Source: Isoetes taiwanensis (taxonomy: Eukaryota; Streptophyta; Lycopodiopsida; Isoetales; Isoetaceae). Taken from it: a stretch of DNA of 64,000 nt. The position numbers and the translations under genes were made by a program. The notes beneath the pieces were generated by a model. That model made no database searches. It was not told the DNA's origin and saw only the letters and a program-made list of their open reading frames with translations. Each line of letters begins with the position of its first letter. The first letter of the stretch is position 1. Location: NCBI GenBank assembly GCA_021234155.1, contig JAJEKV010000059.1, forward strand, positions 5,813,215 to 5,877,214, read 5' to 3'. Positions 4,706 through 64,000 of the stretch are shown piece by piece.

Positions 4706-5549
4706 TGTTAGTATCTCAATAAAATTATGAACTGATAGCAATGAGAGATTTGAATTCAACCACTATATTTACTTCACACCATTAGATCAAATTGACGTCA
4801 AAGATCATATAGTATTTAAGACATAATAACTATTCAATTTCAATGCCAATCAAGCTCAATGTTTCTCCTTTCACTTAAGTAGTTTAAAAGACCAATGCAA
4901 TTTCCTTAATATTCACATCTCATGGCCGACCATGTCACTATTCAAATAGTTCAAAAACTATCATGCACTTACCGATACCAGTCTCAAATGAAATCTCCAC
5001 TATATTTTTTGCATTTGATTCTTCTTGTATTTACATTGTTTGGCCCGGCGGTTGGGGCAACCACCGAGCTACTATGATCAGCTTGTAGATCAGTCATTCG
5101 ACCGATCATTTGGTCGAGCATGGACTGGCTTTCTCCTATTGGACCGTTATTGTAATAGGTCAACTTACTTGAAATATAAATGTTCCAATGGTTCCCCTTT
5201 ACAGATTTAAACTTCAATAGATCAATGGTTTAACCATCAACTCGGCATGCACTTTTCTTCTATAAATGAACCTTGATCTTTAATGTGACTGCACCCATAT
5301 TATACAGGCCTCTATGCAAGGTCTTCAACCGTAAATGTAACTACCCCATTATATACAGGTGGTCTTCAACCATTAATGTAATCGCCCCATTATATACAGA
5401 TTCGTGGATCGCACTTGTTTTATCTGAGACCTCTATGCAAGGTCTCTGTGTTATCATAGAGTATTTCATACTATTACCACATGCCTGACTTCACCGTGTG
5501 TCAATTCCAACTCTGTGTTCATAATTTTCATTCCCTATGATAAAAACCA
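4706..5549 (-). repeat. copia 3' LTR
   Basis: Direct repeat of 8569-9403, starting TGTTAGTATCTC and ending near AAAAACCA on the plus strand, so the LTR has TG...CA ends. The plus-strand motif CCCCATTATATACA occurs twice and gives a minus-strand TATATAAT that could serve as a TATA box. Differences from the other LTR fall mostly at CAG/CTG sites. Confidence 0.88.
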
Positions 5550-5886
5550 TATCCCCGTTTGTGTCGCAGGCCAATTTCTTCTAAGAATCTTCTAGTCCAA
5601 ATAACTTTTTTTACGCCAAGGTTGATGCACATAGATACTCACCTCACTATTTGATAGTGCTACGTTTGCTGATTGTTTTTTTTGCTCCTCCGCCTAATGG
5701 GTCCTCCTCCTAGTCTTAAAATATATCCCCGGGTTGATCTCCTCTCGTCACGGATCACCACACCAATCTGCATCACGGAGGGCTTCTAAATTCAAATTGT
5801 TAGTGTCGTATTGGATGCCAACATTTAATGTACCTTTCAAGTACCTAAGTACTCTTTTGGCGCTATCCATTGACCTTTTCCTGGAT
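5550..5886 (-). pseudogene. copia RNase H remnant
   Basis: Minus-strand reading gives a recognisable copia RNase H stretch (RYLKGTLNVGIQYD, then DADWCGDP, equivalent to the family's DADWAGD, then KKQSANVALS, equivalent to KKQxTVALS). At least two stop codons interrupt it, so it is not functional as written. It lies just inside the 3' LTR, as expected. Confidence 0.7.
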
Positions 5887-6698
5887 TGTTATTGTATCTA
5901 GTCAGCACATTAACAACAAATGAAATATCTGGCCTGGTATTATTTGCAATAAACAAAAGACTCCCTGTCAGCTGCCTATATGGTGTTTTACTCATCTCAT
6001 TTTCTTCCTCCATTGTTTTGGGGCACAATTCCTTTGACAGTTTGCATCCTGGAAGTATTGGTGTACTAACCTCATTGCATTCTTCCATATTGAACTTGTT
6101 CAAGACTGCTTTAATGTATCCTCCTTGTGAAAGAGTTATTTTCTGATTTTTCCTATCACGAGTTACTTCAATGCCAAGAAATTTCTTCAACTCTCCTAAG
6201 TCTGACATTTGATATTGGCTCTGTAGTATCTCTTTGCAATGTTTTAAAGTTTTCATATTTGAGCTGGCCATTATACAATCGTCTACATATACGCCAATTA
6301 TGCAGTGTCCATCTTCTCCCTCATATACGTAAACATTTCCATCATTGTTCAGTTTTCTAAATTCCTTTTCCTTCAAGTATCCATCAATGCACTTGTACCC
6401 TTTGTCAGGCGCTTGCTTCGGTCCATATACTTTGTTAAGCTTCCAAACTTTCTCTTTCCCATCTTCATACCAGGTGCTTGAGCCATATAGACTTCTTCTT
6501 CTAAATCAGCATTTAAAATGCGGTGTTTACATCCATATGGTGTAACTCGAGATCCATAGCATTTGCAATTGCTATTATCATTCTAAGACTTGCCATTTTT
6601 ACAAGCGGTGAATAGGTTTCTCCATAGTCTTCACCTTCCTTACAGTGAGAATCCTGTGCCACTAACGGCTTTGTATTTGGTGTGACCCTCTGCATCAA
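5837..6698 (-). pseudogene. copia reverse transcriptase, broken
   Basis: Minus-strand pieces match the copia reverse transcriptase: YSPLVKMASLRMIIAIA and HHMDVNTAF (start of the domain, 6513-6698), then the YVDD active-site motif in IIGVYVDDCIMASSN, LGELKKFLGIEV and PYRQLTGSLLFIANNTRPDI (5837-6376). The join between the two parts is frameshifted. The catalytic YVDD aspartates are intact. It would copy the element RNA into DNA in virus-like particles if gag were supplied elsewhere. Confidence 0.85.
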
Positions 6699-7266
6699 TT
6701 TTAGGTTTGTATATCCACTTGCTTCCTATTACATTTTACCTTTTGGCAAATCTACAATCTCATATGTAGATGTTCTTGAGAAACGATTTCATTTCTTCAT
6801 CCATGGCCATTCGCCATTTATACGCCTCAAAGCTTTGTATTGCATCATCAAAACTTCTTTGGTATTCCGGTTTCTAGTACCATTAATGTCTCCTAGGTTG
6901 TCAATTCTTTTTTTGAATCTGCTTTGCTTTTCCGCTTGCTAAACGCCATAATGCTCATCATGTATTTCCATTCCTTCCTTAAGTCTTTGTATACATCATT
7001 TTACGGATCGACATTATTCAAACCCTGATCCGCTCCATTTCGCCCGGCATTTTCAATGGTCTCATCATTGTCATTTACGTATGACTCCCCGCCTTGACCG
7101 GGGGCATTATTTGCTGATATTTTCCCATTCGGTCATCTATATCTTGTTCGTTGCCCGGTCATTATTTGATGTATCTTCTGCCACATCATTGTTAAGCGAA
7201 TTTTCCTTTGTATTGGTGTTTTACGAATTTACATACGTCTTTGAATCAGCATGAATTTTTTGACCT

Positions 7267-8566: not shown

Positions 8567-8567
8567 A
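8556..8567 (-). promoter_or_regulatory. Primer-binding site (initiator tRNA-Met)
   Basis: Minus strand reads TGGTATCAGAGC, the complement of the 3' end of plant initiator tRNA-Met used by most copia elements to prime reverse transcription. It lies one base inside the 5' LTR. Confidence 0.9.
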
Positions 8568-8568
8568 A

Positions 8569-9403
8569 TGTTAGTATCTCAATAAAATTATGAACTGATA
8601 GCAATGAGAGATTTGAATTCAACCACTATATTTACTTCCACACCATTAGATCAAATTGACGTCAAAGATCATATAGTATTTAAGACATAATAACTATTCA
8701 ATTTCAATGCCAATCAAGCTCAATGTTTCTCCTTTCACTTAAGTAGTTTAAAAAGACCAATGCAATTTCCTTAATATTCACATCTCATGGCCGACCATGT
8801 CACTATTCAAATAGTTCAAAACTATCATGCACTTACCGATACAGGTCTCAAATGAAATCTCCACTATATTTTTGCATTTGATTCTTCTTGTATTTACATT
8901 GTTTGGGGTGGTTGGGGCAACCAGAGCTACTATGATCAGCTTGTAGATCAGTATTCGGCCGATCATTTGGTCGAGCATGGACTGGCTTTCTCCTATTGGA
9001 CCGTTATTGTAATAGGTCAACTTACTTGAAATATAAATGTTCCAATGGTTCCCCTTTACAGATTTAAACTTCAATAGATCAATGGTTTAACCATCAACTC
9101 GGCATGCACTTTTCTTCTATAAATGAACCTTGATTTTTAATGTGACTGCACCCATATTATACAGGCCTCTATGCAAGGTCTTCAACCGTAAATGTAACTA
9201 CCCCATTATATACAGGTGGTCTTCAACCATTAATGTAACTGCCCCATTATATACAGATCTGTGACTGCACTTGTTTTATACAGACCTCTATGCAAGGTCT
9301 ACAGGTTATCATAGAGTATTTCATACTATTACCACATGCCTGACTTCACTGTGTCAATTCCAACTCTGTGTTCATAATTTTCATTCCCCTATGATAAAAA
9401 CCA
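8569..9403 (-). repeat. copia 5' LTR
   Basis: About 835 bp, direct repeat of 4706-5549, with TG...CA ends. Apart from CAG/CTG-linked changes the two LTRs are almost identical, suggesting a fairly recent insertion. Confidence 0.88.
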
Positions 9404-10215
9404 TATCATGCTAATACGTGCAATCTTCCTGTCACCAGCATATTCACCAAATAAACAATCATGAGATGAACTTTATCTCAACATTTTTTTCACATAACAT
9501 TTTTTGCATTGGTATCCTACTCTTGGAAGCCCTCAAAAAATGTTTTTTTAGGGTAAGACATGGGACATATGTGAATCATTGGCTTTTAAGTCTACAAAAT
9601 AGCATGTGCTCCAAAATGACCCACTAATTAGACAAAGGCAAACTCAAATTATGCCTCCATTTTTTTTTTGCCCAATGGAGAACCTTTTTTTGTGAACTAT
9701 GTTTGAATTGGAGATCAAGATTGCTTGGCAAGTGACTACTATCATTTTCCAAGTGGACTGGGTCCTGTGGACCAGTAATGGACTGCAAGCAAGACTGGAC
9801 ACATACCCATATCTTCATTTCTTGAGAGCACGTCTTATGCTCTTTTCATGTGCTTGTTTTTGCATATGAATCCACCCTTGGAAGCCTTCAAAGTGTGTTT
9901 TTTTTTGCATGAGAAGTGGCAAATGCTATGGATCTCTATGGTGAATCATTGGCCTCTAAGTTTATAGAGCATCATGTGCTTCAAAGGATCCTCTAATTAG
10001 GCAATGGAAAATTCAAATTAAGGCTCTCATTTAGTTTTACCCAATAGAGAAGACTTTTTTGCAAACCATGTTTGAAATTAGAAATTGAGATTGCTTGACA
10101 AGTGACTGTGGTTATTTTTCAAGTGGGACTGGGTCCTGTGGACCAGTAATGGATCAACGGTGGACTGCAGGTTACAATCTATCTCGATTTTTTGCGAGCA
10201 CGTGTTATGATATTT
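9404..10215. repeat. ~370-bp tandem repeats, 3' subterminal region
   Basis: Shared blocks recur about 368 bp apart: CTTGGAAGCC(C/T)TCAAA at ~9525 and ~9880, AGTGGACTGGGTCCTGTGGA near 9754 and its near-copy near 10123, and GAGCACGTcTTATG at ~9826 and ~10196. A third partial copy is split by the copia insertion (its left half ends at 4705). No gene is visible. Confidence 0.65.
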
Positions 10216-11479: not shown

Positions 11480-12640
11480 TTAAATTCGTTTCAACAAGCA
11501 AATTTTAAGCAGGCAATTTCTGACATAACCATATAATGCAGGTGTAAACGCCAAGGGACAATTGCTTTGCTTGATTTAGAGGTGAACACATCTAACTTTC
11601 TGTTGTTTTCATTCTAGTCACTGCTTGGTAGCTTCAATCTCTGAGGAATAAATGTTGCCATTAGAGGAAGGAATTTGTGCAGTCAGAAGAAGCCCGCCTC
11701 AATAGCATTGCGGCTATCCCTCTACTGGATCATCATGATGCCCTTTCGGTAGGTCTGTTTGTAAACCGTATATTTTATTTGAGACGACACAGGTGCCGTT
11801 ACACTGGATATTGGATATGGCAGGGGATTAGGGAAATTAGAAGCGCCCAGGCCGGCCATGGCGGAACTGGAAACTGAAGGGCAAATCTGTGGAGGATTTG
11901 AGAAGCAGCCTCCGCTGGTTTTATATTATCTGAGTTTTGCCTTCCAGCCTTTGTTTCCAAAGATCGAGTTTTGAATGTCCCAAAATCATTCTGTATTTGC
12001 TGCATTACAGAAGAATCTGCCTTTTGGGGTTAAATTTTCCAGGCTCTGGTGCCCTTAACTCTGCAAAAATAAGCCATTCTGTGGCCCTTAACTCTGCAAA
12101 AATAAGCCATTCCCTGCTATTGCGGCCAGGGATTTGAGGAACCATAACATCCTTTTGCCCTTTCTTGCATGTTATGCCCTGTACGCTGGAGGTAGCCAGT
12201 GGTTTCGACCTTCCTTAAACAATCGATTCTATCTTATCTTTCATGCTTGTTCCGGTACTTTTATCTGCTTATTATTAACTCTGATTTGTCCTCTGTATTT
12301 TTGACAGAGAATCAGGTCGTGGCTATGGCAACTGCAAGCTCTTTAGCATGGATTGGGAACAGTCGCCACAATGTTTGCTGTTTTGTTTAGGTAAATTTCT
12401 CATTTCCTAAGCGCCAGATTAACTGTCATAGTTTGTTCTCTCAAACAGGTTGTCTTATTTTATTGTTTTCTTTGTTCCTGGGGAATATAACGTAAAAGCA
12501 TATAAAATCTCAAAATTTGAATGATTTACATGTTCGAATTTTTGTGGCAGCTATACAACAATTACCTGCTCCGTTGTTCCATTCAATTGTCTTGATCCAA
12601 CCACATGCTCATTTTCTCCATCGTCTGCCCCCTCACCTGC
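11480..12640. other. Non-coding, probable intron or decayed gene sequence
   Basis: T-rich with a 27-bp local duplication (CTTAACTCTGCAAAAATAAG at ~12055 and ~12081). It could be intron sequence of the transporter remnant downstream; no exon is clear. Confidence 0.3.
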
Positions 12641-12659
12641 TCTTGGACAAAGCACATGC

Positions 12660-12985
12660 ACAAATATATTTCAGTCTTTTGCTTCGGTAGGCCAGATTGC
12701 ATTTGCTTTAGCAGGGCATAACGTTGTTTTAGAGATCCAAGTCACAATGCCATCAACTGAACAGAAACCTTCTAAGGTAGCCATGTGGAGGGGTGGCCTT
12801 GTTGCTCATATAATTATTGCATCATGCTACTTGCTGACTGCCACTATATGTGATATTCTTAAGAAGCATGCCAACATGTTGCTCCTCCTCAGCTTTCCAA
12901 CGCCACTTGTTACAATGGCAAATCTAATGCTAGTCTTCCATACAGGAAGCAATTGGATATAACTCATACAGGAAGCAATTGGATT
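12660..12985 (+). pseudogene. Lysine/histidine-type amino-acid transporter exon (LHT-like), broken
   Basis: Plus-strand translation gives FASVGQIAFALAGHNVVLEI then a PSTxxKPSKxxMWRGxxVAxII run and SFPTPLVTMANLMLVFHTGS. These are the hallmarks of plant LHT amino-acid/proton symporters of the AAAP family in the plasma membrane (ALAGHNVVLEIQ, PSTPEKPSKxPMWRG, then two membrane helices). The segment covers roughly 95 residues of a ~440-residue protein. It is followed by a duplicated CATACAGGAAGCAATTGGAT (at ~12940 and ~12966) and stops. The upstream helices are not visible. It is either a pseudogene or one exon of a gene whose others I cannot find. The identity is solid, the functionality is not. 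Confidence 0.7.
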
Positions 12986-14072: not shown

Positions 14073-17000
14073 TGAAGATATCATTGCCAATGCTGGCATT
14101 GTTGGGTACATTGCATCAGTCTATTGATTTTCTGTCACATTTTTTTTTGTGAAGATATCATTGCCAATGCTGGCATTGTTGGGTACATTGCATCAGTCTA
14201 TTGATTTTCTGTCACATTTTTTTTTTCATGAAGCCTGCATTCAGTTAAATGCAAAGCCTACGTCAGTTTTTGAAGTTGGCATGTTCATTTGTTGTGTTAT
14301 TTTCAAAGGACTGCTCATCTTTGTAAGAAATATCCCAGGTTCTTAGGGCTTTTGGGGAGAAATATAATTTAACTGATTATGATTTATGAAGTCTCCAAAG
14401 CTTGGTGATGACGCATCTGCAAATTCCTGAAGGCAAAATAGGCAATCATAAAGAAATTGACTTTGATCAAACACATTATTTAGACTACATGCGCCTACTG
14501 ATTGTCCAGCCAGATCTTTATACTAGGATTGAAAGGTCAATCATGTGATGTGCCTTTCCCATTCGTGCCTATTGTGCATCTCAATGGCTTATTCTGTCTT
14601 TCATTTGTTCTTTATGAAGGGCAAGGTCCGTTGAACTAACTAATTCTTTGGCATATCTGTGTTGCATATTAATAAAAGATGTTTTATTTATGGTTTTGTA
14701 AATAGTAGTGAACATATTTGTTCAACTTGCATATCTATTTGCAAAGGGTTCTCAGAGAATTGCATTTGTACAAATAAGGTACTTCTCCACTGTTTAATCA
14801 TTTATGGCAGTACATTAGTTGGAGCTTCTGATATGTTTGACATTGCTGTAAATGCATTAGGTGCGGTTTTCATTTTTCTACTAATCTGTTTGACCATTAT
14901 GTAATGGATGTACTCTAAAGTATAGCATGTGACAAGCTTCGAAGCTTTGGGCTTTAACCAAAATATTCAATGTTTGAGTTTCCTGCCATTTCAAGCAAAG
15001 AGAATCTCATGCAGTGTATTACAGAAAGATATATATACATTTGGCTGTTGTTTTCCATGCAAACTGGCAATTTATGAAGGCACATAGATGAACCTTTTTT
15101 TATATTGGCAATTTATGAAGGCACATAGATGAACTTTTTTTATATTATTACTATACATTTTATGGAAGAAGAAAAGAGAAAGTTCCATTCAAAGCGCAAT
15201 AGACGTCTCCAATCAAGCATTCTTTGCCTATCTATGCCTAATCATGCTTTTACAACTTGTAATAAGCTTTGTTATTCAAAATAAAATAAGACACGTTGAG
15301 CAAAGCCAAGCTTCCTCAAATGAAATACAAAGGGAAAAAGAACACCATATATAGAATTAATCTTCAAATCGAATAAATTACTACAAATGTGAAATTACAT
15401 ACTACAAAAAGCACATTGCCAAATTGTTGTCTAATGACACCATGCTTAGTATCTAACAAGCAAGTTTAACCTTGCCAAAGTCTTGATCGATGCTACACTT
15501 CATATCTAAAACTTTTAACCTTGCGAGTCTTCTCTCTAATAACACTACGCTTAGATATCTAATAAGTTTAACCTTGCTAAAGCCTTTTGGTGTGCCTTTT
15601 TGCTAGTTATTTTTTTTTTTTTTTTTTGGGGGGGGGGGGGGTAGAGATAGATTCATAGGTAGGTGTTGGGAACATAAAGGTAGATTTATAAGGGTTGGCA
15701 TGCATAGGCATTTTCACAAAACCAATTTAGATAAATGGCAATAAAAACATTTAAACCCCATTTAATTTACAAGATTAAGATTATGATGATAGCTTATAAA
15801 GTGTTGCAAGAAGAACATTTTCCTAATAGATGATCCTTATGTTCACACTTTTTTGAATGACTGCAATGGACATCTTTGCAAGTCTAGAAACACATGACTT
15901 GTAAATTGTGATATAGTTGGTTGCTAGTAACATAAGCTCCACAAGAAGGATAATCGCTCCTATTACTAAGATGTATAGCTACACAGATATAACAGAAAGG
16001 GTGTCCACGCCATGGTTAGGATATATATTGGACTAAAAAATCTTTGTTATGGTCAATTTTGGGTAAGATTCGACTCTCCTCTGAACAAATGATACTTTAG
16101 GACAACTTTTCAAGACTTTGTCAAAACAACTTGTAAGTTGCAAGATGTTCTCCTACACAACTAGTACTACTTTAGCATAGCAAAGTGTCTACAATGACAT
16201 GAGCTTTGGCTTGCTATACGATTCTTAAAATTCTTATTGGTGAGATCCTCGAATTCAAAGGGAGGGCATTGTTGGGTACATTGCATCAGTCTATTGATTT
16301 TCTGTCACATTTTTTTTTTCATGAAGCCTGCATTCAGTTAAATGCAAAGCCTACGTCAGTTTTTGAAGTTGGCATGTTCATTTGTTGTGTTATTTTCAAA
16401 GGACTGCTCATCTTTGTAAGAAATATCCCAGGTTCTTAGGGCTTTTGGGGAGAAATATAATTTAACTGATTATGATTTATGAAGTCTCCAAAGCTTGGTG
16501 ATGACGCATCTGCAAATTCCTGAAGGCAAAATAGGCAATCATAAAGAAATTGACTTTGATCAAACACATTATTTAGACTACATGCGCCTACTGATTGTCC
16601 AGCCAGATCTTTATACTAGGATTGAAAGGTCAATCATGTGATGTGCCTTTCCCATTCGTGCCTATTGTGCATCTCAATGGCTTATTCTGTCTTTCATTTG
16701 TTCTTTATGAAGGGCAAGGTCCGTTGAACTAACTAATTCTTTGGCATATCTGTGTTGCATATTAATAAAAGATGTTTTATTTATGGTTTTGTAAATAGTA
16801 GTGAACATATTTGTTCAACTTGCATATCTATTTGCAAAGGGTTCTCAGAGAATTGCATTTGTACAAATAAGGTACTTCTCCACTGTTTAATCATTTATGG
16901 CAGTACATTAGTTGGAGCTTCTGATATGTTTGACATTGCTGTAAATGCATTAGGTGCGGTTTTCATTTTTCTACTAATCTGTTTGACCATTATGTAATGG

Positions 17001-19275
17001 ATGTACTCTAAAGTATAGCATGTGACAAGCTTCGAAGCTTTGGGCTTTAACCAAAATATTCAATGTTTGAGTTTCCTGCCATTTCAAGCAAAGAGAATCT
17101 CATGCAGTGTATTACAGAAAGATATATATACATTTGGCTGTTGTTTTCCATGCAAACTGGCAATTTATGAAGGCACATAGATGAACCTTTTTTTATATTG
17201 GCAATTTATGAAGGCACATAGATGAACTTTTTTTATATTATTACTATACATTTTATGGAAGAAGAAAAGAGAAAGTTCCATTCAAACGCAATAGACGTCT
17301 CCAATCAAGCATTGCTGCCTATCTATGCCTAATCATGCTTTTACAACTTGTAATAAGCTTTGTTATTCAAAATAAAATAAGACACGTTGAGCAAAGCCAA
17401 GCTTCCTCAAATGAAATACAAAGGGAAAAAGAACACCATATATAGAATTAATCTTCAAATCGAATAAATTACTACAAATGTGAAATTACATACTACAAAA
17501 AGCACATTGCCAAATACTGTTGTCTAATGACACCATGCTTAGTATCTAACAAGCAAGTTTAACCTTGCCAAAGTCTTCGGTCTGATGCTACACTTCATAT
17601 CTAAAACTTTTAACCTTGCCAGAGTCTTCTCTCTAATAACACTACGCTTAGATATCTAACAAGTTTAACCTTGCTAAAGCCTTTTGGTGTGCCTTTTGCT
17701 AGTTATTTTTTATTTTTATTTTTTTGGGGGGGGGGTAGAGATAGATTCATAGGTAGGTGTTGGGAACATAAAGGTAGATTTATAAGGGTTGGCATGCATA
17801 GGCATTTTTCACAAAACCAATTTAGATAAATGGCAATAAAAACATTTAAACCCCATTTAATTTACAAGATTAAGATTATGATGATAGCTTATAAAGTGTT
17901 GCAAGAAGAACATTTTCCTAATAGATGATCCTTATGTTCACACTTTTTTGAATGACTGCAATGGACATCTTTGCAAGTCTAGAAACACATGACTTGTAAA
18001 TTGTGATATAGTTGGTTGCTAGTAACATAAGCTCCACAAGAAGGATAATCGCTCCTATTACTAAGATGTATAGCTACACAGATATAACAGAAAGGGTGTC
18101 CACGCCATGGTTAGGATATATATTGGACTAAAAAATCTTTGTTATGGTCAATTTTGGGTAAGATTCGACTCTCCTCTGAACAAATGATACTTTAGGACAA
18201 CTTGCAAGACTTTGTCAAAACAACTTGTAAGTTGCAAGATGTTCTCCTACACAACTAGTACTACTTTAGCATAGCAAAGTGTCTACAATGACATGAGCTT
18301 TGGCTTGCTATACGATTCTTAAAATTCTTATTGGTGAGATCCTCGAATTCAAAGGGAGGGCATTGTTGGGTACATTGCATCAGTCTATTGATTTTTACAT
18401 CACATTTTTTTTTTTTTGTGAAGATATCATTGCCAATCTTTGGCATTGTTGGGTACATTGCATCAGTCTATTGATTTTTACGTCACATTTTTTTTTCATG
18501 AAGCTGCATTCGATTAAATGCAAAGCCTACGTCTTTTTTTGAAGTTGGCATGTTCATTTTGTTGTGTTATTTTCAAAGGACTGCTCATCTTTGTAAGAAA
18601 TATCCTGTGTTCTTAGGGCTTTTGGGGAGAAATATAATTTAAGCGATTATGATTTATGAAGTCTCCAAAGCTTGGTGATGACGATCCGCAAATTCACGAA
18701 GGCAAAATAGGCAATCATAAAGAAATTGACTTTGATCAAACACATTATTTAGACTACATGCGCCTACTGATTGTCCAGCCAGATCTTTATACTAGGATTG
18801 AAAGGTCAATCATGTGATGTGCCTTTCCCATTCGTGCCTATTGTGCATCTCAATGGCTTATTCTGTCTTTCATTTGTTCTTTATGAAGGGCAAGGTCCGT
18901 TGAACTAACTAATTCTTTGGCATATCTGTGTTGCATATTAATAAAAGATGTTTTATTTATGGTTTTGTAAATAGTAGTGAACATATTTGTTCAACTTGCA
19001 TATCTATTTGCAAAGGGTTCTCAGAGAATTGCATTTGTACAAATAAGGTACTTCTCCACTGTTTAATCATTTATGGCAGTACATTAGTTGGAGCTTCCGA
19101 TATGTTTGACATTCTTTGTAAATGCATTAGGTGCGGTTTTCATTTTCTACTAATCTGTTTGACCATTATGTAATGGATGTACTCTAAAGTATAGCATGTG
19201 ACAAGCTTCGAAGCTTTGGGCTTTAACCAAAATATTCAATGTTTGAGTTTCCTGCCATTTCAAGCAAGGAGAATC
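14073..19275 (+). repeat. 2.1-kb tandem array, almost three units
   Basis: Unit 1 is about 14173-16265, unit 2 about 16266-18357, and unit 3 about 18358-19275, truncated at CAAGCAAGGAGAATC. Identical internal landmarks recur at 14659, 16752 and 18928 (spacings of 2093 and 2176). The extra 83 bp in unit 3 is a doubled head (CATTGTTGGGTACATTGCAT...), which is also doubled just before unit 1 (14098 and 14173). Units are near-identical except at CAG/CTG positions. Each complete unit has a poly-T/poly-G run (15609-15641 and about 17707-17735). The recurring small open frame (81 codons at 14659) is not recognisable as a gene. Confidence 0.9.
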
Positions 19276-21260: not shown

Positions 21261-23730
21261 TAGTAATACCTGATTGCAGCTGAATGCAAAACGATGTCAG
21301 TGACCTATCATAGCCAACGTTATAGCTCCCTACATTCGTCATCAAACCACTGATTACAGGGGAAGGCCAATGCTCTCAGAGGCTTGTGTGACTATCTTCT
21401 CTCAAAGCATCTGTCAGCAGCCATGATAAGCACATTGGTTAACTGGGCAATCTGTTATTACATCATGGGGAGCTTCAGTATTTCTTCTAGGTTTGGCATG
21501 ACCATCTAGGCATGCATGGTCATGATCCGGCCGCAGCTGAGGCACCCAGGGTGTTGAGGCCACGGGCATGTGAGGAGGCTGCCAATAACCTATAGGAGAA
21601 AAGGTTAGTTGTCAAAATCCACTTCTTCATCTCTATTGTCTATTCTACCACGAAAGTAACCAAATGCAGATCTCGTTTTGGCACTAGTACGTAATCCACG
21701 AGAGGTCTTACATACATGCCGACTAAAGAAACGTTGGAGCAAAATGTCCAATTGTATTGAAATTAAGGTATGTAAGCATGGCCACAATTGTAATATCGTA
21801 ACAACAAAAGAAAAGCATACTGCCTTCAATTAGGAAAACAAAGAAACAAGATGCTTATGCATCAAAAGCTTTCCCTCTTTGCCCGCTGGGAAGTTCAAGT
21901 TACTTATGATGCTTTGATACATTCTGGTGTAAATATGCCAAGGTGTCCAGAATATGTAGGGAGAGGGTTTGAGACCCTATTGAACTATGTGTTTTGGCCC
22001 ATTTGATGCCCTGGTCGTTCGTTAAATGAACGTGTAGTGGTATGAGGAGACTAATCACATCCTTTTGTTGTATATATTTCGCTTGGTCCAACAAGAAGAA
22101 GCGGCATGATAGGGTCTATTGTGACGTTCCACGTATTTATATGCCTTTTTAAGTATAAATATATGACACATCACTATGAATAATTAATAGCACATTAATT
22201 ATCCATAAGCTAAGGTTAGCTATGTTAATTTATCCTATTGTTTAAATTTGGTTTTTCCGGGGTTCCGAAAACTTTTTGGATTTTTCTTCCAAGGTTGATT
22301 TTCTAAGGTCTAGGAGCTTTTGGCTCCCGGAAAACTTTTCAGGTATTCCAAAAATTGGGTTTGTGAATTTTGCATGATTTTGAAATTGTAGGTTTTGGGG
22401 TTGCTTATCCATTCCGGATTCTTCTTTTGGCTTGGCTCCACCTTATCCGATCGAGCCTGGAGCACAGCACGGCATGCATGCCACAATTCAATGTAATACA
22501 AATCGATTTGTCAGAGAGTGTGATGGATTCATAACCCCAACTCTTGCTTTCAGATTTTTGATGCAAATTTGATCTTTTGCAGCAGTTGCTTTCTTCTGCA
22601 GATATCTTGCAGCATGGAGCATGGGTTTAGAGATCCCGCTGCGATTTCGCTGTATATGGGCTTCAAGCTGGCGACAAGATGCGGACAAGGTTTTTTTTTC
22701 CAAAAAGTGATTTTCGTCAGGACTCCTTCTTAGGTTTGCATGGAGGTTTTTCTGTCAGATTTAGGGTTATACTCAAGGGGACTCATTTTCTCACAATGAT
22801 TAAGTGCTATTTACAGTGCTATAATTCTGTCAGCATATCAGATTTGGGGTTATAAACAACGGAATTCATTTTCTCAATGGTAATCATCGGCTTCATCAGA
22901 AGTAGTCCATTGAAAGCTAATGTCATCTTGCAGAAATAATCTGGCTACATACATTTTTAAGCTACATCTATATGGTACTTAGTTATTATTCAATCCAGTA
23001 TTTTGTGTTGTTACACAAGAAAGCCAGGAATGCTTCCATCGTAAAACTTCAAAGAATTACGCCATGATGCAGAGGACACTGAAGTCTTCTTCTCAAATAA
23101 GGCCAACAGATCGTTGTAGCTCCTTTAAACATTTAATTATTTCCATTTGATTTGCTTTCATACTTTGTTCTTCCTTATCAGGGATTCCTAGCTCCCCATC
23201 CACTCTCTATAAAAGGCACGCTACTGATATCAAATCCCTTCTTTGTAGTGTTATGGTGATGTTGTTGCTGCAGAAGAATATCATGTCTATTAACCATAAA
23301 CATTTCTATCTTCTTTCATGAGACTTAAGGCATTAACAAGCTTTACTGAATTCTTATTGCTGGGCGTGAGCTTGGAATGGAGAGTGCTTGACATAATTAG
23401 CTATTTTATTGGAGTGTCATTTGCATCAAGATGTTTCCTCCTATTTTCGAGCACTGCCCTGTTCGAAAAGCAGAGATACTGAGAGGTAATTCTTAGTAGT
23501 CCTGTATTTCTAAGTTTCGTCCCTTTTAATATGTGAATTATTTTGAAGTCATGGAAAGCTTTATCTTTCCTATTCACGTGCCTGGAGATATGGGTAGTTG
23601 TGTTGTACTGATTTTCACAAGCCAGAGCACACAAATATAGGTTACTTTCTTATTTCTAAAAACAGTGATTGAAACTATATTGGATAGTAATGGTACCCAG
23701 CCTTGCTGGGCATAAATTAGGAACCTTTAA
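21261..23730. other. Non-coding intergenic DNA
   Basis: I see no convincing gene. A 250-bp part around 22110-22350 (GTTCCACGTATTTATATGCC, then GGGGTTCCGAAAAC) looks LTR- or promoter-like but has no visible partner copy. Confidence 0.35.
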
Positions 23731-23731
23731 T

Positions 23732-25563
23732 TTCTTTCTTTTTTTATTCTCCCTTTTTTTTTCTAACCCCGTTCTCCCTCCCTTTGCCTTCCCTTTCCCC
23801 TTTCCCTTTTTTTCTTTCTCTTTTTCTTATCAGCTTTTTCCCTTCCTTTTTATCTTTCCCCGCTCTTCCCATTTTTTTCCACTACTCTCTTTCCCTTTCC
23901 TTTTCCCCTTCCTCTTCCTTTTCCTTTTCCTTTTCTCTTTCCGTTTCTCATACATTTTTTTCGTTCTCTTTTGCTTACCTTTTCATGTGCCCTTTTCTTC
24001 CTTTCCCCACCCTCTTCCTCTTGATCCGTGCCTTTTCCCCATCTCTTTTCCCATTTCTCTCTCCTCTTTTCCTCATGCTCTTTTTGCTTTCCCTTCTCCT
24101 TTTCCGCTTCCCTTTTCCTTTCAACTTTCCATTCCCTTTTCATACTTTCCCCACCCTTTTGCTTTGCTGCGATGTTCCCTTTTCCCTTTCCTTTCTCTTT
24201 CCCCTTCCTTTACATTTTTTCCTTTCCGGTTTCCTTTCGTTTTCATATGCCTCTTTTCCATTCCCTTTTTCTCAACCTTTTTATGTACCCTTTTTTCCTT
24301 CTTTCCCCATCTTCTTCCCCATTTTCCCCTTTCCACTTTCTCCTTTCTTGTTTCTTTTTTCTTTTTCCCCTTTCCCTTTCTTTTCTTTTTCCCTTTCTTT
24401 CTTCTATTTCCTCACCCTTTCCCTCTTCCCTTTTTTTCTCGTGCCTTTTCTCCTTCCTCTTTTCCTATTCCTTGCTCCCTACCCTTTGTCTATTCTAATT
24501 CCCCCCCCACCTTTTTTCCTCATTTTTCCATCCTTTCCTCTTCCTTTTTTCTCGATGCTCTTTTTGCTTTCCTTTTTTCTCTTTCTTCACCCTTTCTCTT
24601 TTCCCCTTTTTTTCGCCATTTCATTTTTTTCTCTTTTTCTCGTTCCTTTTCCCAAGTTCTCTTTTTCCCTTTTCCCCTCTCTTTTCCTTTTTACTTTTCT
24701 TTTTCCCATAGACTTTTGCAACCTTTTCTTATTTTCCTTACCTTTTTCTCCTTTTCTCACCTTTACTTCTTACCCTTCTCTGGTGCTCTTTTTCCGTTCC
24801 CTTTCCCCTCGCTTATTCTATTCCTTTTTCTATTTTCTTTTATCTTTCCATTTTCCTTTTCTCCTTCTCTTTCCTTTTTCCTCTTACCTTTCCTTTATTC
24901 CTTTTCCTTTTTCTCTTTTTTCCCTTTTCCCTTTTCCCTTTCATCGTTTTTCCTTTTCCCTTCTCCTCTTCCTTTTCCCTTTTCCCTTTTCCCTTTCATC
25001 GTTTTCCTTTTCCCATCCCCTCTTCCTTTTCCCTTTCATCTTTTTTCCTTTTCCCTTCCCTCTTCCTTTTCCCTTTTCCTTTTCCCTTTCATCGTTTTTC
25101 CTTTTCCTTTTTCCTTTTCCCTTTTCCTTTTCCTTTTCCCTTTTCCCTTTCATCGTTTTTCCTTTTCCTTCCCTTTTCCTTTTCCCCTTTTCCCTTTCAT
25201 CATTTTTTCCTTTTCCCTTCCCTTTTCCGTTTCCCTTTTCCTTTTTCCCTTTCATCGCTTTTTCCTTTTCCTGTCCCCTTTTCCTTTTCCCTTTTCCCTT
25301 TTCCTTTTTCCGTTTTCCATTTTCCCTTTCCGGTTTCCCTTTTCCCTTTCATATTTTTTTTCCTTTTCCCTTCCCCTTTTCCTTTTCCCTTTTCCCTTTC
25401 ATAGTTTTCCCTTTTCCCTTTCATCGTTTTTCCTTTTCCCTTCCCCTTTTCTGTTTCCCTTTTCCCTTTCATCATTTTCCTTTTCCCTTTTCCTTACCCT
25501 TCCCCTTTTCCCTTTTCCCTTTTCCCTTTTTCCTTTTCCTTTTCCTTTTTCCTTTTCCCTTTC
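23732..25563. repeat. 1.8-kb polypyrimidine tract (CCCTTTTC-type low complexity)
   Basis: The plus strand is almost entirely C and T, mostly CCTTTTCC and TTCCCTTTTCC motifs, with rare purines. From about 24935 onwards a longer period of roughly 45-60 bp appears, marked by CTTTCATCGTTTTTCC and variants (near 24939, 24994, 25037, 25088, 25149, 25250, 25418, 25468). Long open frames on both strands (over 600 codons on plus) arise because stop codons need both a T and a purine on the same strand, so they are not genes. Such a mirror-symmetric homopurine/homopyrimidine run can form triplex DNA. Confidence 0.92.
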
Positions 25564-26970
25564 ATATTGAAGCCATAGTCAAGATGAAATTTTAGTTGAA
25601 GACACGCACACATCATCTCCACCATTGGTCAATCAAATCCTCGACCGTCCGATTTAGGGTGCGGTCCATTACACAACATTATAATATAAGATAGTCTGTG
25701 CACTAGGTGGTAATCTGCAGTTTTAGTTGTGCAAGTTTAGCTTTGAGGCAAGGAACATTAAATGTTGATGCTTAGAGATAGTATGTGTAGTATGGCATGG
25801 CCAATGGTACATATACTGCTAACAGGACAAGAGCAAGTACCACCTCATGGAACAACATGAGATGCCACAATTCTTGGTGCAGAATTTATTTATCAGGTGT
25901 ATTAAGACTGCACAATGAGATAAGGCATGCAAAAGCAAGGATCTGCTTGACAAGGAATTTCAAAGAGAGGAATTGAGAAGGGAAAAGAAGCTGACATATA
26001 TATTATTTATTCTTGGTTCTTTCCAATCCAAAATTCCCGAACTATATTTTAACGCTCTTCTAATTTCTGATATATTCCAATGAAATTCATAGAGTCTAGG
26101 TATACCTCTACACACCTCTGAACTCTGGTCATTTCGTGTCTGTCTTGATCACCTTATTTTGTTTTTGTAAGTGATAATGGATCATGGAACTGAGCTCAAG
26201 TGAATGAGCTTTATGTGTGCATCTCCATCAAGGCAGCATATCTTTCCGATGGGATGATTTGAAGGGAATACTTTGTATTTGTGGAGTGTTACATCTCACT
26301 TTTTCCTGTTTTGTTGGAAGTTTTTGCAGTTGCAATCTTTGCGAGTTAGCGATGCCATGCATAAGGTGCATTCCTTGCTGCATCCGATTGGATGAAAATA
26401 TCGAGATGCCATCCAAATACCCGGATGCAACGATGGACATTCATATTCTTGCTGTGGGAAGTCACCAGAGATGGGTCTGAGAGCATGACGCAACGTACAT
26501 GAAAGCATCAACGACCATAATGTTACTTCAGTTTAAGATGAGCAACATGTAAGCAACTATCTGAATGCCTTAAAAATGTCACTTTAACTAGGAGCTGGAC
26601 GCCCTTTGGATGCCAACAAACATGCTAATGTGCATATATAGAGGCATCAATGACCAAGATGTTATTTCAGGGCAAGATGAGCAACATTTAGGCAATTGCA
26701 CTTGGATGCCTTACACCCTCGATGAATTCACGGAAAGAGCACAAACTTCTATGAAAATTTCTTATTGTTGGATTATATTTGATGCCGATTTTAGTGTTCT
26801 TTAGAGAAACTAATGGAGTGAAAGATGTTGCTCTTCATCTTCAGTGAGTTTAAAATGGTTTTCATGCAATCTATGTGCTTCAAGTTTTGCTTACCATTCT
26901 GATTCTTGAAATTATTCAGAGCAGCGAGAGGCCAACCTCCATGCTTGAGAAACAGAGTTTGCTTGCTGAA
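25564..26970. other. Non-coding, with a diverged ~140-bp duplication
   Basis: AGCATCAACGACCATAATGT to TGAATGCCTTA (26501-26572) is echoed by GGCATCAATGACCAAGATGT to TGGATGCCTTA (26642-26711). No gene is recognised, although the short frame at 26217-26480 is cysteine-rich. Confidence 0.4.
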
Positions 26971-40090: not shown

Positions 40091-40096
40091 ACTACA

Positions 40097-40703: not shown

Positions 40704-41342
40704 TCAGCCACCTCGAACACCACCTCTCTCAGTCATTGCCTTTCCTAATGCCCTTGTGAGTAGGCAACGATAAGCAGAAACAATGTGCATGTCACTAATA
40801 CCACTGGACAAAGTAAGTAATGTAGGTGCATCTACAAGGGCCAACTTTCCTATATTGCCACTTGGTATTGTGTAATGATACTTGTGAAACCAGACACCTC
40901 TATCCCTTAGGGAAGACAAAGCAACATTAGGATACAACAAACTGCCAACAACATGATGATGGACCTCCAATACGCTTGTTACGCTTTGAGCTGGAGTTTT
41001 GTCCTTAAACTCAGAAGAACAGATACAGTTGGCATCTAACTTTGGAAAACTTGGACTGTTTGCAATACCTTGAGTCATCATATCTTGGGGTCCATAAGCA
41101 TGTTCAATTACAAGCTCATCTACGCATCTACCACCTTCCCTAAGCACAAATCCTACAACACGTGCCTTCCAATGTGCAGCCAAATCATTAAGCTTTCTCT
41201 TTTTCACAGCGAATTTGCCACGTTGGCTTGGTCTGATTGTCACCCAAGATCCAAGAGATATATGCATATCAGTCCATTTACCACTATCATCTGTTGTATT
41301 TCTCAAAATAACTTGACTAACTTCTGACCGTTTTCCAGCCAT
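40704..41342 (-). CDS. Conserved unknown protein, 212 codons, duplicated
   Basis: An ATG-started minus-strand frame: MAGKRSEVSQVILRNTTDDS, LGSWVTIRPSQRGKFAVKKR, HWKARVVGFVLREGGRCVDE, then SVTSVLEVHHHVVGSLLYPN. No signal peptide or membrane helix; a basic stretch (KKRKLND, residues ~47-53) could act as a nuclear signal. The other copy (62592-63086) differs in its first 140 residues at only a handful of positions (V/I, A/S, K/R, S/N), then frameshifts at 62650-62680. Low divergence could mean recent duplication or constraint. I recognise no domain. Exons at 40097-40420 may continue it. Confidence 0.55.
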   Translation of the reverse strand: MAGKRSEVSQVILRNTTDDSGKWTDMHISLGSWVTIRPSQRGKFAVKKRKLNDLAAHWKARVVGFVLREGGRCVDELVIEHAYGPQDMMTQGIANSPSFPKLDANCICSSEFKDKTPAQSVTSVLEVHHHVVGSLLYPNVALSSLRDRGVWFHKYHYTIPSGNIGKLALVDAPTLLTLSSGISDMHIVSAYRCLLTRALGKAMTERGGVRGG

Positions 41343-42250
41343 AGTTCACTAGCATGAAGATAATCTATTCTCCACAATTCAAAAGTTCTTAAACTGGTCG
41401 AATAACAATCATACCAAGATCTTCTATGGAGCTGCTGTGGTGATCAAAAAGAAAGATACCATGGTCTTGAAGAAATCCTATGCATGGCATGAAAATCATT
41501 AGATCTCATGGATCAGCGGTCACTTGCGGTTTTACTATGTCTTTCTAACTAGAATAGCATATAACCTCGACCTTGCATAAACCCATATCCTACAACAAAG
41601 AATCACGGTTGCAAAGTCTTCTTAATTTCTACCTAACAAAAATGGACTAAATCAAACATGTACTTTCTTCACTTAATCCTCGTTTACCCTATTTATCCTA
41701 CTTCACGAAGAATCATCATAACAAAAATTCAAAGACTTACGAGCTTTGTCCAATAAACTCCATGGCTTTGGACTGTGTCACTATGGTTGGCCGAGATTCC
41801 ATAATATCCCTATAACAAGGCATAAAGAAGACATCAATGGCAAAAGAAGTCTTTATCCCTCCAGAATTGAAGCAAGTTGTTGCACAAAGGCTTAATCATG
41901 ATATTCTCATATTCATGAACTGAGTTATCTGGTATCATAGTCCAAGTTTTTCATGATGTTCCAGAACTATGCATGACCATTTATTTGATTAAATAAAGAT
42001 TTTAAGTGCTACGTTAGACTTAAAGGACTACGAAACAATCAAATACATGATACTACAGAATTGGGGCTCCTGTGCTGAAAAGCAATTGAATAATGTCATA
42101 TAGTACAGAATTACAAGACATGAGAACAGAAGCCAAGGAAGAAGACAAACCAAATAAAGAGAGCTCAAGCCTGTCATCTGCGATGATCTTGCCAATTTTA
42201 ACACCCCCTTAAGAACGTGTCACAACTCCAGTTCTTCTCAAAACTACAGT

Positions 42251-45150: not shown

Positions 45151-45676
45151 AACCTTAAAAGAAAGGGCATGTATTAGGCCGAGATAGGCCTAACCGAGGA
45201 TGAGCCAAGCGAGAATGTGGGGCGTGTTTAAGCGGTCTTCTTTCCCTTCATCTCCTTCAAGAACAATAGAGAGTCACCTTGAAGCGGTAGCACAAAAATT
45301 ATGGAGTCAGTCTTGAACAATAGAGTTGAACTGGAAACAATATTTCGATTTTTTTATGCAGGGGTGCATTTATATGAGGACACGTGGCATTGCGATAACA
45401 CGGAATGGAAATTGGGTATCCACGATTAAAGTGGCGGCTTCAACCCGGTCACTTGTTCTTTTTCAGCATGTTTTTTTTTTTTACGCACTTGTAATTGCTC
45501 ATTACTTTGTTAAATTCGAGGGCTCGGAAGCTACTACATAGAAATCCCCCTATCAAAGCGTAACGAAATTTCACTAATTCAATCCCAAACTGGACAATCC
45601 GCATAAATCTAGCTCGATACCTCTGTTTTTGCACCTTACGCTCTAATCCGGCATGACTTGGGATTAAGTCCAAAAG

Positions 45677-45680
<4 letters not shown>

Positions 45681-45707
<27 letters not shown>

Positions 45708-50650: not shown

Positions 50651-51800
50651 GCTATTCGATTCTCAAACAAGCCCTTTATTCCAAGATCCGGACCCGTACA
50701 TAGCGATCCTCGTTTGTGGGGTATGCATGTACAAGTTTTTGTATACTGTATATTAAAGTTTACAAAATACTATAAGGTTTGAGACAATGTACTTAATGGT
50801 GTTAATTTTGTACATGTATTGTAAATATATTTTTGAGCTCTCATGCCCTCGTAACCCAGGTGTGAATATGCACCCAAACCAAAGGGGGTTTAAGGGGATT
50901 TTAATTTAAATGTGTTAAATGCAATGGTTTGTGTTAATAATGTTAATGGTAGTTGTGTGTTGATTGTTATATTAAAAAAATTTTGGGCCCGCCGGGCCCT
51001 AATAAAAGCAAACATAGGCCGTGAATTTGCGGTATGTTTTTAAAAAAAAAAAACCATTTATTATCTTCATCATTATTGATGCCAACTCTCTCTTTTCTTT
51101 TCTAACCTGCCAAAGATTCATATTAAGTCAAAACTCAATATTAAACTCCACCTCTAGTATGCAAAAAATGAAGTTTCATTCACGGCCCGGTAGCTTTGGA
51201 AAATGATTTTAAATGTGAACAGGAAACCTTTGTTGCCTTGTTAGCATTTTCAATAACATTCGGGAAAGTCCGTTACAATGACCACCAGCACGGCCAAATT
51301 CACGGAAGAATAGGCTGCCAGTTATTATTTATTGTACCTCACGCTTAAAAGCCCATTTTAGGATCTATTAGGCCTCTTAGATGATAATACATCATTAGGA
51401 GTGCGACTTTCGACAAGTCGGGCGGTATTTGCCCAACATATGGATGGCCTCTCTTTAAATGTTGGCCTTGCATGAGATGAGCTTGTGAATCCATTGTGGC
51501 GAGGTTGAGTCATACCGGGACCCAATGCTAAGATACTAAAACAAAGTAGCACATGGATATAGACTAAGCATCCATCTTGGACATTATTGCGACCGGTGTG
51601 AAGATTCAAGATTAACATTGAGAATTGAAAAGCAGAGAATGAGGTCCAAAGATGCATCTTTGGTATATGACAACCCGGGTTTGAAAGGAAAAAAGGATAT
51701 TTAGGCAAATCACGGTCACAATGGCCATTAAAAAAGCGAGCAAAGACATCTATGAAGTAAAACTTTACCACAAACAAGGCTTGCATGAAATCCAAGACCA
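50651..51800. other. Insert between the Harbinger halves, non-coding part
   Basis: Includes a small perfect hairpin (GGGCCC-GCC-GGGCCC near 50985) and AAATTCACGG motifs in both orientations (51020 and 51290). Minus-strand frames here may extend the PPR remnant but are not convincing. Confidence 0.3.
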
Positions 51801-60185: not shown

Positions 60186-60279
60186 AAGCCATAGGAACCA
60201 CAAACCGTGGGCAAGTCATAGGAACCACAAAGCGTGGTGCACAAGCCATAGGAACCATTAAAGCGTGGGCAAGTCGCAA

Positions 60280-60960
60280 TCTTCGAAGCCTCCCTTGCTA
60301 GGTGCCCACTTAGTTGCGATTAATTGGCCCATGGAGTTGAGCCTCACAAAAGTTGCATATGAAAAAGTATTTGAACTTTCAAGTCCCATTATCTCGGTTA
60401 TGCTATCCGCCCAACTTGACAATGTGTACAATTAAGGAAGTTGTTACGTGTCATGATCCAAATCAAAGCGGAGTTCGAGAAAGTCTTGTGTCATTGCAAC
60501 AGAAGACTAGATAATTTTTGAAGAAGCCGTAATTCCATTTTTTATAGATTTGATCCCCATATAGAGCTACAAGCATACTCTCTTGCATTTGTAGGCTATA
60601 ACTCCCTTTGAAACAACTTCATGCCCCCGCTTTTAGAACACGGGTGCGGACCATAGTATCTGTGGGATTGTCAAAGCTTTGCCATATCTTATGAGAATTA
60701 TTGTCCCAAAGGATAAGGTTTCCTCCGTAACGAGATGCTTAACCGTTGTACTTCATAACCCTTTGTCCGAGTAGACCATGCTTCCGGTTCCATCATCATC
60801 TGACCGCGAGGGTTTCCATCCGTACTAATCCTCAAAAATCCCTTCTCGATAGCAATATACGAGAAGAATTGGCGGTCCCATTAACAATCTCAAGATTATG
60901 GGTAAATAGACTCCATTAAATTTCTCTATGCAAGGGCACTTCACTTTTCTTTCCACAAAA
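60280..60960 (-). pseudogene. G-type lectin receptor-like fragment, second copy
   Basis: Same minus-strand bulb-lectin and S-locus sequence as 38432-39197, but broken into pieces by many more frameshifts, nearly all at positions where copy 1 has CAG or CTG. No usable frame remains as sequenced. Confidence 0.75.
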
Positions 60961-61947
60961 GCTTAAGCGGGGTTCAAGAACATTTCTTCAATCAAAGAGA
61001 CTTCCATATTTGTATCGTAATTTTATTTAACGGAATCAACATTTGAGTGTAAACTCACCTTCATGAATTTATAAACTCGTTTCAACTGTTGACTAAACTC
61101 GTAATTGTATTTAACATCTTCAACACCTAATCGTGAACTTCGGCTTCTAAGATGCATCGAAAAATTACCTTCCCAAAGCATCCCAAATTGCAAAGATGAA
61201 GTCAAAACAACGTTGAAGGTAAACAAGTTGTTGAAGATCCACAAAACTCAAAGTGTTTTTAATCATTATATGCACCAACTCTCCAGTAAACAAAGAAAAT
61301 AGCCCATCCGTCGAATATTGCGTAAAAGATCCGGATTTTGCCGAATATTGCAGCCTCAAAATGAAATATCAAATACTCTTCAACAAATGGTGCAAACACA
61401 TGTGGAACAAAGGATGAATTGCCTACATCATTCAACAAACCGCATATAATCGAAGCTAGAACACAAGAGAACAATAACAAATCAATAGGGAGCTCTGCAT
61501 GAAGGAGATGTCATCCAAGTCAATATACATAAGATTGCCTATATCCGCCATACTAAGTTGCAAGTCCAAAATAGAAAACATGGCAATCAATGCCATCTTC
61601 CATCTGCGAAAAAGAAGAGGATGCGAATAAGTGTCAAGGTGTCCCAAGGTTGCCCTGTTGGTGCATGATTTGACCTTGCATCTAGAACCTTTCAAGAGGA
61701 CTGATGCCAGGTTCGCAGAGCTGCTTCCATAATATATTCAAGGAATATTTCAAAAAAACATGCATTTCAAACCTCTTTGGGAATTGAACCCAAATTCAAC
61801 CAAAAAGTCTTGCTTTTTTTCTTTTTCCATCATTTATATATCTCAACTACATCAATTTAGATGTTGAATCCTCAAAGTATGTGGAAACATACAATCCTTA
61901 CAAATTAATGAACATTCTCCCGATATCCCACCTTCTTATCAGATCCT

Positions 61948-62175
61948 TTAAGAAATAAAAAATGTGAAAATCCATTGAGGGACTCCAGAACCTTGAGATT
62001 CTAGAAGTGTCCATCCCTTCCACATCCAAGATTTTTTTGTCTTTGCCATTCCGAGATCCACACTTAATCGCATAGAATCAGCCCTAATGACATGTTCTTC
62101 CACGTGTTTCCAACACCATTCACCATTTTCCCATTGCTTCTTATGTCGTTGAATAAAGAAATTGCAATAAAGCAT
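61948..62175 (-). pseudogene. Second copy of the unknown exon
   Basis: Copy of 40097-40420. WENGEWCWKHVEEHVIRADS is kept, then the frame shifts. Confidence 0.5.
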
Positions 62176-62591
62176 CTGCTTTGGTACTTCAGATCCGAGA
62201 ATTTATATCTTGTCAAGATTTATATAACATGTTGCAAAATAAAAGAGTTTACTTACTTAAAATGAAGGCACAGGTCTACTTGGCAGACTAGTTAAATTGC
62301 CCTCGTTTCATGAATTCACTTTCCCCATTCACCCAAGAATAGGGGTTTAAAGATGCGCCACTAACATTTCTTTAAATGTATAGGTCTGTGATAACCCTTC
62401 AATATGACTTCTTTAAACATGAAGCCGCAAATACACTTAAGGGGACCGAAAGCTACAGCCACCTCGAACACCACCTCTCTCAGTCATTGTCTTTCCTACT
62501 TCCCTTGTGAGTAGGCAACGATAAGCAGAAACAATGTGCATGTCACTAATACCACTGCACAAAGTAAGTAATGTAGGTGCATCTACAAGGG

Positions 62592-63086
62592 CTAACTTTT
62601 CCTATATTGCCACTTGGTATTGTGTAATGATACTTGTGAAACCGCATTACCTCTATCCTTAGGCTTAACATTAGGATACAACAAATTGCCAACAACATGA
62701 TGATGGACCTCCAGTACACTTGTTACGCTTTGAGCTGGAGTTTTGTCCCTAAACTCAGAAGAACAGATACAATTGGCATCTAACTTTGGAAAACTTGGAC
62801 TGTTTGCAATACCTTGAGTCATCATATCTTGGGGTCCATAAGCATGTTCAATTACAAGCTCATCTACGCATCTACCACCTTCCCTAAGCACAAATCCTAC
62901 AACACGTGCCTTCCAATGTGCGGACAAATCATTAAGCTTTCTCTTTTTCACTGCGAATTTGCCACGCTGGCTTGGTCTGATTGTCACCCAAGATCCCAGA
63001 GATATATGCATATCAGTCCATTTACCACTATCATCTGTTGTATTTCTCAAGATAATTTGACTAACTTCAGACCGTTTTCCAGCCAT
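62592..63086 (-). CDS. Second copy of the conserved unknown protein
   Basis: Copy of 40704-41342. It starts MAGKRSEVSQIILRNTTDDS and is intact for about 140 codons with few conservative changes, then diverges by frameshift near 62650-62680 and ends early. Unknown function. Confidence 0.5.
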   Translation of the reverse strand: MAGKRSEVSQIILRNTTDDSGKWTDMHISLGSWVTIRPSQRGKFAVKKRKLNDLSAHWKARVVGFVLREGGRCVDELVIEHAYGPQDMMTQGIANSPSFPKLDANCICSSEFRDKTPAQSVTSVLEVHHHVVGNLLYPNVKPKDRGNAVSQVSLHNTKWQYRKS

Positions 63087-64000
63087 AGTTCACTAGCATG
63101 AAGATAATCTGTTCCCCGCAATTCAAAAGTTCCTAAACTGGTCGAATAACAATCATACCAAGATCTTCTATGGAACTGCTGTGGTGATCAAAAAGAATCA
63201 TACCATGGTCTTGAAGACATCCTATGCATGGCATGAAAATCATTAGATCTCATGGATCCAAGCAGTCACTTGCAGTTTTACTATGTCTTTCTAACTAGAA
63301 TAGCATATAACCTCAGCCTTGCATAAACCCATATCCTACAACAAAGAATCACAGTTGCAAAGTCTTCTTAATTTCTACCTAACAAAAAGATGGACTAAAT
63401 CAAACATGTACTTTCTTCACTTAATCCTACGTTTACCCCTATTTATCCTACTTCCTGAAGAATCATCATAACAAAAATTCAAAGACTTACCAGAGCTTTG
63501 TCCAATAAACTCCATGGCTTTGACTGTGTCACTATGGTTGGCCAGAGATTCCATAATATCCTTAACAACAAGCCATAAAGAAGACATCAATGGCAAAAGA
63601 AGTCTTTATCCCTCCAGAATTGAAGCAAGTTGTTGCACAAAGGCTTAATCATGATATTCTCATATTCATGAACTGAGTTATCTGGTATCATAGTCCAAGT
63701 TTTTCATGATGTTCCAGAACTATGCATGACCATTTATTTGATTAAATAAAGATTTTAAGTGCTACGTTAGACTTAAAGGACTACTTAAACAATCAAATAC
63801 ATGATACTTTTCTAATTGGGGCTCAGGTCGAAAAAGCAATTGAATAATGTCATATAGCATGTAATTACAAGACATGAGAATGTGGCCAAGGAAGAAGACA
63901 AACCAAATAAAGAGAGCTTCAAGCCCGCTATCCGCGATGATCTTGCCAATTTTAACACCCCTTAAGAACGTGTCACAACTCCGGTTTTTCTCAAAACTAC

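Follow-up and report, generated by a model that had tools for sequence, protein, structure and literature searches.

The window analyzed here is a 64,000-nucleotide stretch of the quillwort Isoetes taiwanensis (contig JAJEKV010000059.1, positions 5,813,215 to 5,877,214 of the forward strand), in which several repeats are present in more than one copy. Our subject is the small differences between these copies, which fall at CAG/CTG, a plant CHG site (H being A, C or T), far more often than expected. The copies belong to a duplication (pair A), a tandem repeat (B) and the long terminal repeats (LTRs) of a copia-like element (pair C), between which an open reading frame (ORF; 5840-6376, minus strand) encodes an RVT_2 domain. 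They are listed below, with the strand where one was assigned.

4706-5553: one LTR of the copia-like element (pair C); 8 sites intact in the other LTR only, 3 intact here only
8569-9407: the other LTR of pair C
14172-16319: first tandem copy of pair B1; 4 CAG/CTG sites lost between 15224 and 15525
16265-18414: second tandem copy of pair B1
18359-19275: partial third copy of B; 11 CAG/CTG sites of 14095-15006 lost, including GCTG to CTTTG at 18439
38479-42247: first copy of pair A; CAG/CTG intact at 68 of 89 differing sites
38688-39197, minus strand: B_lectin ORF, open in the CAG/CTG-rich first copy of pair A
60235-64000: second copy of pair A, at 93% apparent identity; mostly changed over 60235-62950, mostly intact over 63263-63543

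Motif specificity of the differences

We aligned four copy comparisons (A, B1, B2 and C) and counted an event whenever CAG/CTG was touched in either copy, a rule that somewhat favors changed columns; for the null, these events were shifted circularly 2000 times. Among 158 difference events, 93 touched CAG/CTG, about four times the circular-shift expectation. The count exceeded every shift in pair A (70 of 113 events; shift mean 18.7, maximum 33), in pair B2 (11 of 16; mean 2.1, maximum 7) and in pair C (7 of 16; mean 1.6, maximum 6), while in pair B1, which partly shares sequence with B2, the observed count equaled the shift maximum (5 of 13; mean 1.0, maximum 5). An earlier, sequence-only reading of the window had placed the mismatches almost only at CAG/CTG. 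The clustering is indeed strong, but ‘almost only’ overstates it, as 65 of the 158 events lie elsewhere.

When mismatches in the aligned pairs were tabulated by trinucleotide context, CAG/CTG stood out among the words without CG. It was disrupted at 117 of 297 occurrences (39%), compared with 4-18% for the other non-CG trinucleotides, CCC/GGG being the next highest (18%). Rates were low for CAA (6.5%), CAT (4.8%), CAC (10.9%), AAG (7.3%), GAG (9.0%) and TAG (4.0%), each counted with its complement; thus, exchanging the first or last base of CAG removes most of the effect. Trinucleotides containing CG were also highly disrupted (29-62%), at least in part because the altered words gain CG, as happened in 58 of the 111 short events of pairs A, B and C. 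When sites were defined from one copy, the near-to-far ratio for CAG/CTG was the highest of 12 motifs in all six comparisons (2.1-10.4, with the 11 control motifs at or below 3.1).

Either copy can carry the altered form, as the sequence-only reading had proposed: in pair A, 68 sites are intact in the first copy only and 21 in the second only. The word pairs cited in that reading are present within a few bases of the positions it gave, although one form was misread. CCAGAG faces CCGAG at only one of three cited sites (63541 vs. 41790); at 17616 vs. 15520 and at 63489 vs. 41739, CCAGAG faces CGAG, with two bases lost. In the B_lectin ORF, the frame distinguishes the copies. Matches of the lectin protein to the 60-kb copy were split over two frames (57% identity for the larger piece); it is therefore the copy rich in CAG/CTG that preserves the frame. 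A further ORF is common to both copies of pair A (40704-41342 and 62592-63086, minus strand); it had no Pfam match at E 0.001.

Other genomic copies and the 5S rRNA arrays

A detector based on composition alone (CAG/CTG vs. CpG per kb) pointed to suggestive tracts in the window, but the anticorrelation was not specific to CAG/CTG. The detector was rejected, and its map was used solely to choose two tracts with little CAG/CTG and much CG, for which CAG/CTG loss relative to other genomic copies was set as a prediction. A CAG-rich, multi-copy stretch served as comparison. Among the other matches listed, we fetched 10 of 41 for the stretch at 51200, 2 of 40 for that at 45200, and 6 of 30 for that at 12200. 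Contig (C) and locus (L) numbers below are our own.

51200-51700 (D51): window copy with 5 CAG/CTG; 9 of 10 fetched copies with 16-23, one with 7
45200-45700 (E45): window copy with 6 CAG/CTG; sister copy at C1066:5880157 with 17, and a 326-base partial copy with 10
12200-12700 (G12, the comparison): window copy with 18 CAG/CTG; 2 of 6 fetched copies depleted (10 and 6), the others with 14-19

As predicted, the window copies of D51 and E45 had lost CAG/CTG relative to other genomic copies. Between D51 and locus L029, only 5 of 216 columns differed outside the neighborhoods of CAG, CTG and CG, compared with 75 of 520 overall, the mask being drawn from motifs in any row and thus favoring an artefact. 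The offset between E45 and its sister (21,736) is nearly that of pair A (21,753-21,756), so E45 and pair A probably go back to a single duplication, and E45 would then not count as an independent family. The sister of window sequence from 45207 onward (C1066:5880157-5880644) falls at window coordinate 66943, past the window end; thus, the duplication probably continues beyond it.

The sequence-only reading had described the errors as uncorrected in repeats. Repeat copies are affected, but the stronger proposal that only repeats are affected was not borne out: 45200-45700 is altered despite having only one other near-full copy among its 40 other matches, whereas 12200-12700 is CAG/CTG-rich in the window and has six other copies, full or nearly full, at 91-99%. 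These copies indicate that the errors are not simply tied to copy number.

To ask which form is true, 5S ribosomal RNA (rRNA) genes offer many copies of one unit. We located them with RF00001, fetched four arrays (loci L005-L010) and used only the 69 near-complete copies.

C13:282836-304975: 5S array; reference unit 346 bases
C907:40703529-40709441: 5S array
C1103:277551-278742: 5S array
C1041:12717508-12718240: 5S array

Ten of the 69 copies were identical to the reference copy. In 33, CATCAGAACT of the reference reads CATCGAACT, CATCAG being cut to CATCG; the cut form occurred in 30 of 49 copies on C13, 3 of 12 on C907, 0 of 5 on C1103 and 0 of 3 on C1041. AGTACTGGG was changed in 46 copies, 38 of which end in TCTTGGG or TCTTTGGG, and GGGCCGG became GGGCGG in 26. 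Neighboring segments switched between changed and unchanged 100 times, far below the shuffled 226.7 (minimum 188), so that the changes cluster along and between units. All eight segments were changed in 9 units, some in 49 and none in 11, the shuffle expectation for none being 0.02. Long exact words miss copies with a second nearby change; with that reservation, the exact 27-base word with CAG matched the genome at 44 places, of which 18 lie outside the C13, C907 and C1103 arrays, and the exact 26-base cut word matched at 16, all on C13.

Given the ten reference-identical 5S copies, the 18 exact CAG-word matches outside the main arrays and the preserved lectin frame, CAG/CTG is the true form and the altered words are wrong. 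Many degenerate-looking 5S genes therefore most likely reflect miscalls. Two spacer variants common to most units look like real polymorphism; we took the spacer differences at AAGCAGGGG and CTACAGGTG to be polymorphic and excluded them from the cross-family test described below.

Origin of the altered words

Some replacement words recur in unrelated repeats. CAGTTA became CGATTA in pairs A, B and C; CTTCAGGAA became CTTCGTGAA in pairs A and B; and CAGCA became CAAAGA in A, B and D51, and also inside a longer change in 5S. For a cross-family test we used 78 events, dropping changes of more than nine bases and those without a clean left anchor, merging duplicates, and taking the commonest outcome per site for 5S. 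When CAG plus three further bases were shared, the outcome was identical in 7 of 33 cross-family pairs (shuffle mean 1.2, maximum 5; 2000 shuffles). Context thus influences the replacement word without fixing it.

In native plant DNA, CHG sites bear 5-methylcytosine (5mC). In this genome, a methylase exon on C1026 matched PDB 4fsx, which we take to be maize chromomethylase, with 117 bits, and no DNMT1-named chain listed after the top three scored above 54 bits; two loci around methylase matches are presumably MET1-like and DRM-like. The chromomethylase-like exon makes CHG methylation in I. taiwanensis plausible, and the motif at which the changes occur suggests that CHG cytosines are methylated in the affected tracts.

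The published I. taiwanensis assembly was made from native DNA with LSK109, Nanopore R9.4.1 and Guppy 3.1 flip-flop, then with miniasm, racon and pilon, followed by Bionano scaffolding and LR_Gapcloser (PMC8566536). The sequence analyzed here (1,658,258,908 bases, 1110 contigs) appears to be that published assembly (1658.30 Mb, 204 scaffolds and 909 contigs; PMC8566536).

We consider it very probable that the repeat copies differ because base-calling errors at methylated CHG cytosines entered the consensus and went unrepaired in patches. A methylated CHG cytosine would shift the pore signal, and the Guppy 3.1 flip-flop model for R9.4.1 would emit a wrong word, often one bearing CG, perhaps because 5mC came mainly with CG in the training data. 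Agreement between reads of the two strands would be frequent enough to carry the wrong word into the racon consensus. Short-read polishing with pilon would then mend parts only, so that a corrected repeat copy can face an uncorrected one; the mapping of short reads in such tracts could suffer from dense errors and from repeats alike. Systematic long-read miscalling at CHG sites was also the cause favored by the sequence-only reading, and it gains support from the assembly method, the mixed 5S arrays and the similar replacement words in unrelated repeats. The bad patches might instead be single raw reads introduced during gap filling, but this fits less well: within one block, CAG and CTG sites (near 38561 and, for the other strand, near 40313) show one and the same canonical change, as a consensus of both strands should.

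Other origins were weighed against the same data. Ordinary subfamily divergence with random long-read errors, the CAG/CTG excess arising by chance or from C-to-T decay, would suit the plain substitutions and homopolymer indels among the events away from CAG/CTG and the two polymorphism-like 5S spacer variants. We find it scarcely credible, since the excess lay above all 2000 shifts for A, B2 and C and equaled their maximum for B1, and since D51 and L029 hardly differ outside the CAG/CTG/CG vicinity. Of the 111 short events that pairs A, B and C have at CAG sites, just 5 were single C-to-T or G-to-A changes, which also agrees with the statement in the sequence-only reading that these are not deaminations; decay of methylated CHG by deamination, where such changes should predominate, was rejected on this count. 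A real mutational process at methylated CHG, turning CAG/CTG into CG-bearing words through small indels and multi-base changes, would share the site specificity and the non-deamination spectrum. However, roughly every second 5S copy would have to be altered at the same sites and neighboring copies left untouched, and with some identical words in unrelated repeats and an assembly built from native Oxford Nanopore Technologies (ONT) reads, we regard such a process as very improbable. Nanopore errors due to the CAG/CTG sequence context itself, and not to methylation, would accommodate the 5S hot spots that are not CHG. This origin is unlikely: the affected words (CAG, CTG and, in 5S, CCG) are all CHG, whereas CAA, CAT, CAC, AAG, GAG and TAG are far less often hit, and the default-model errors reported in one study were concentrated in methylated CCWGG (PMC6591954).

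Several results nevertheless weigh against base-calling errors at methylated CHG. The 65 events without CAG/CTG contact are one. The recurrence of words weakens with less context: identical outcomes for CAG plus two bases (15 of 139, vs. 5.1 shuffled) stayed within the shuffled maximum of 17, and CAG alone gave no cross-family excess (47 vs. 57). Two depleted copies shared the replacement word at only 1 of 11 (D51) and 2 of 7 (G12) sites lost in both, and there were exceptions to the recurrent words: in B, CAGTTA once became CGCTTA, and in A, CTTCAGGAAA once became CTTCAAAAA. The 5S excess was a modest, roughly twofold one (10.8% of bases changed within 2 of CAG/CTG and 9.1% within 2 of CAG, CTG, CCG or CGG, vs. 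5.1% elsewhere and 3.3% elsewhere and away from CG); a CG-dense GCGCGC stretch without CHG was also a 5S hot spot, and several other 5S trinucleotides were disrupted as often as CAG/CTG. Altered sites did not form clear blocks in pair A (25 runs vs. 33.1 shuffled, minimum 21) or in B1, B2 and C (2 vs. 2.6, 3 vs. 2.8 and 7 vs. 5.4), and copy number did not predict the affected stretches. By anticorrelation with CpG, CAG/CTG came third for the window and was fifth when random stretches were used, and in the conditional version of this composition test it was not among the extremes shown. Finally, the accounts of Guppy training differ, one paper stating that it spans organisms of all kingdoms and another naming human, bacterial and PCR data (PMC9749173, PMC7501810).

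Consequences and neighboring features

This kind of artefact is already known, and our finding is a warning for users of the assembly and no biological discovery. In Klebsiella pneumoniae, about 70% of the consensus errors of then-current ONT base-callers fell in the 5mC motif CCWGG (PMC6591954). These Dcm errors in Enterobacteriaceae resemble ours in that 5mC at a C-W-G motif was unlearned by the model and the errors persist in the consensus; they differ in that CCWGG is a five-base bacterial motif, whereas Isoetes shows plant CHG with frequent CG-bearing replacements. In Listeria, untrained modifications likewise led to systematic consensus errors, at motifs (GCAGC, GCTGG) that contain CWG, most of which were removed by amplification or computational correction (PMC10687267); these are bacterial genomes, however, and the computational correction relies on related genomes. 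In plants, lower base-calling accuracy has been tied to methylation, with Guppy models not optimized for native plant DNA and species-specific models raising accuracy, but the passages seen mention neither CHG-specific error words nor a consequence for repeat copies (PMC9749173, PMC7501810). The available parts of PMC10095996, PMC9716091 and PMC10027222 hold nothing on CHG-linked assembly errors, and among the papers listed on nanopore errors and methylation, from the range of journals covered, no title or abstract opening described this error spectrum or the problem in this assembly.

The genome of a key lycophyte thus apparently carries dense false variants in patches. One false frameshift lies in the lectin ORF of pair A; further effects to be expected are LTR divergence, and hence insertion ages, that come out too high, an overestimated CpG content, spurious repeat subfamilies and false 5S rRNA variants. 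Other plant assemblies from native-DNA ONT reads with similar models may be affected likewise, and comparing CAG/CTG content between repeat copies offers a quick check. It is conceivable, though we lean somewhat against it, that the assembly also holds a low-resolution map of CHG methylation in the sequenced Isoetes tissue, in which the density of CG-creating miscalls in tracts where polishing failed marks CHG-methylated DNA, including many 5S copies. If so, CHG methylation could be read from a published sequence without a methylation assay.

Three of 12 genomic stretches at round coordinates (L022, L023 and L026) consisted entirely of N (24,000 bases), either as gaps or as withheld sequence. 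In the window itself, an 897-codon ORF at 1217-3910 (plus strand) matched DDE_Tnp_1_7 with 203 bits and is presumably a piggyBac-like transposase; CAG/CTG occurs there at near its expected frequency. At 23669-25595, a long pyrimidine-rich array leaves two frames open, and the two resulting ORFs (633 and 603 codons), which abound in F, S, P and L, look like phantoms.

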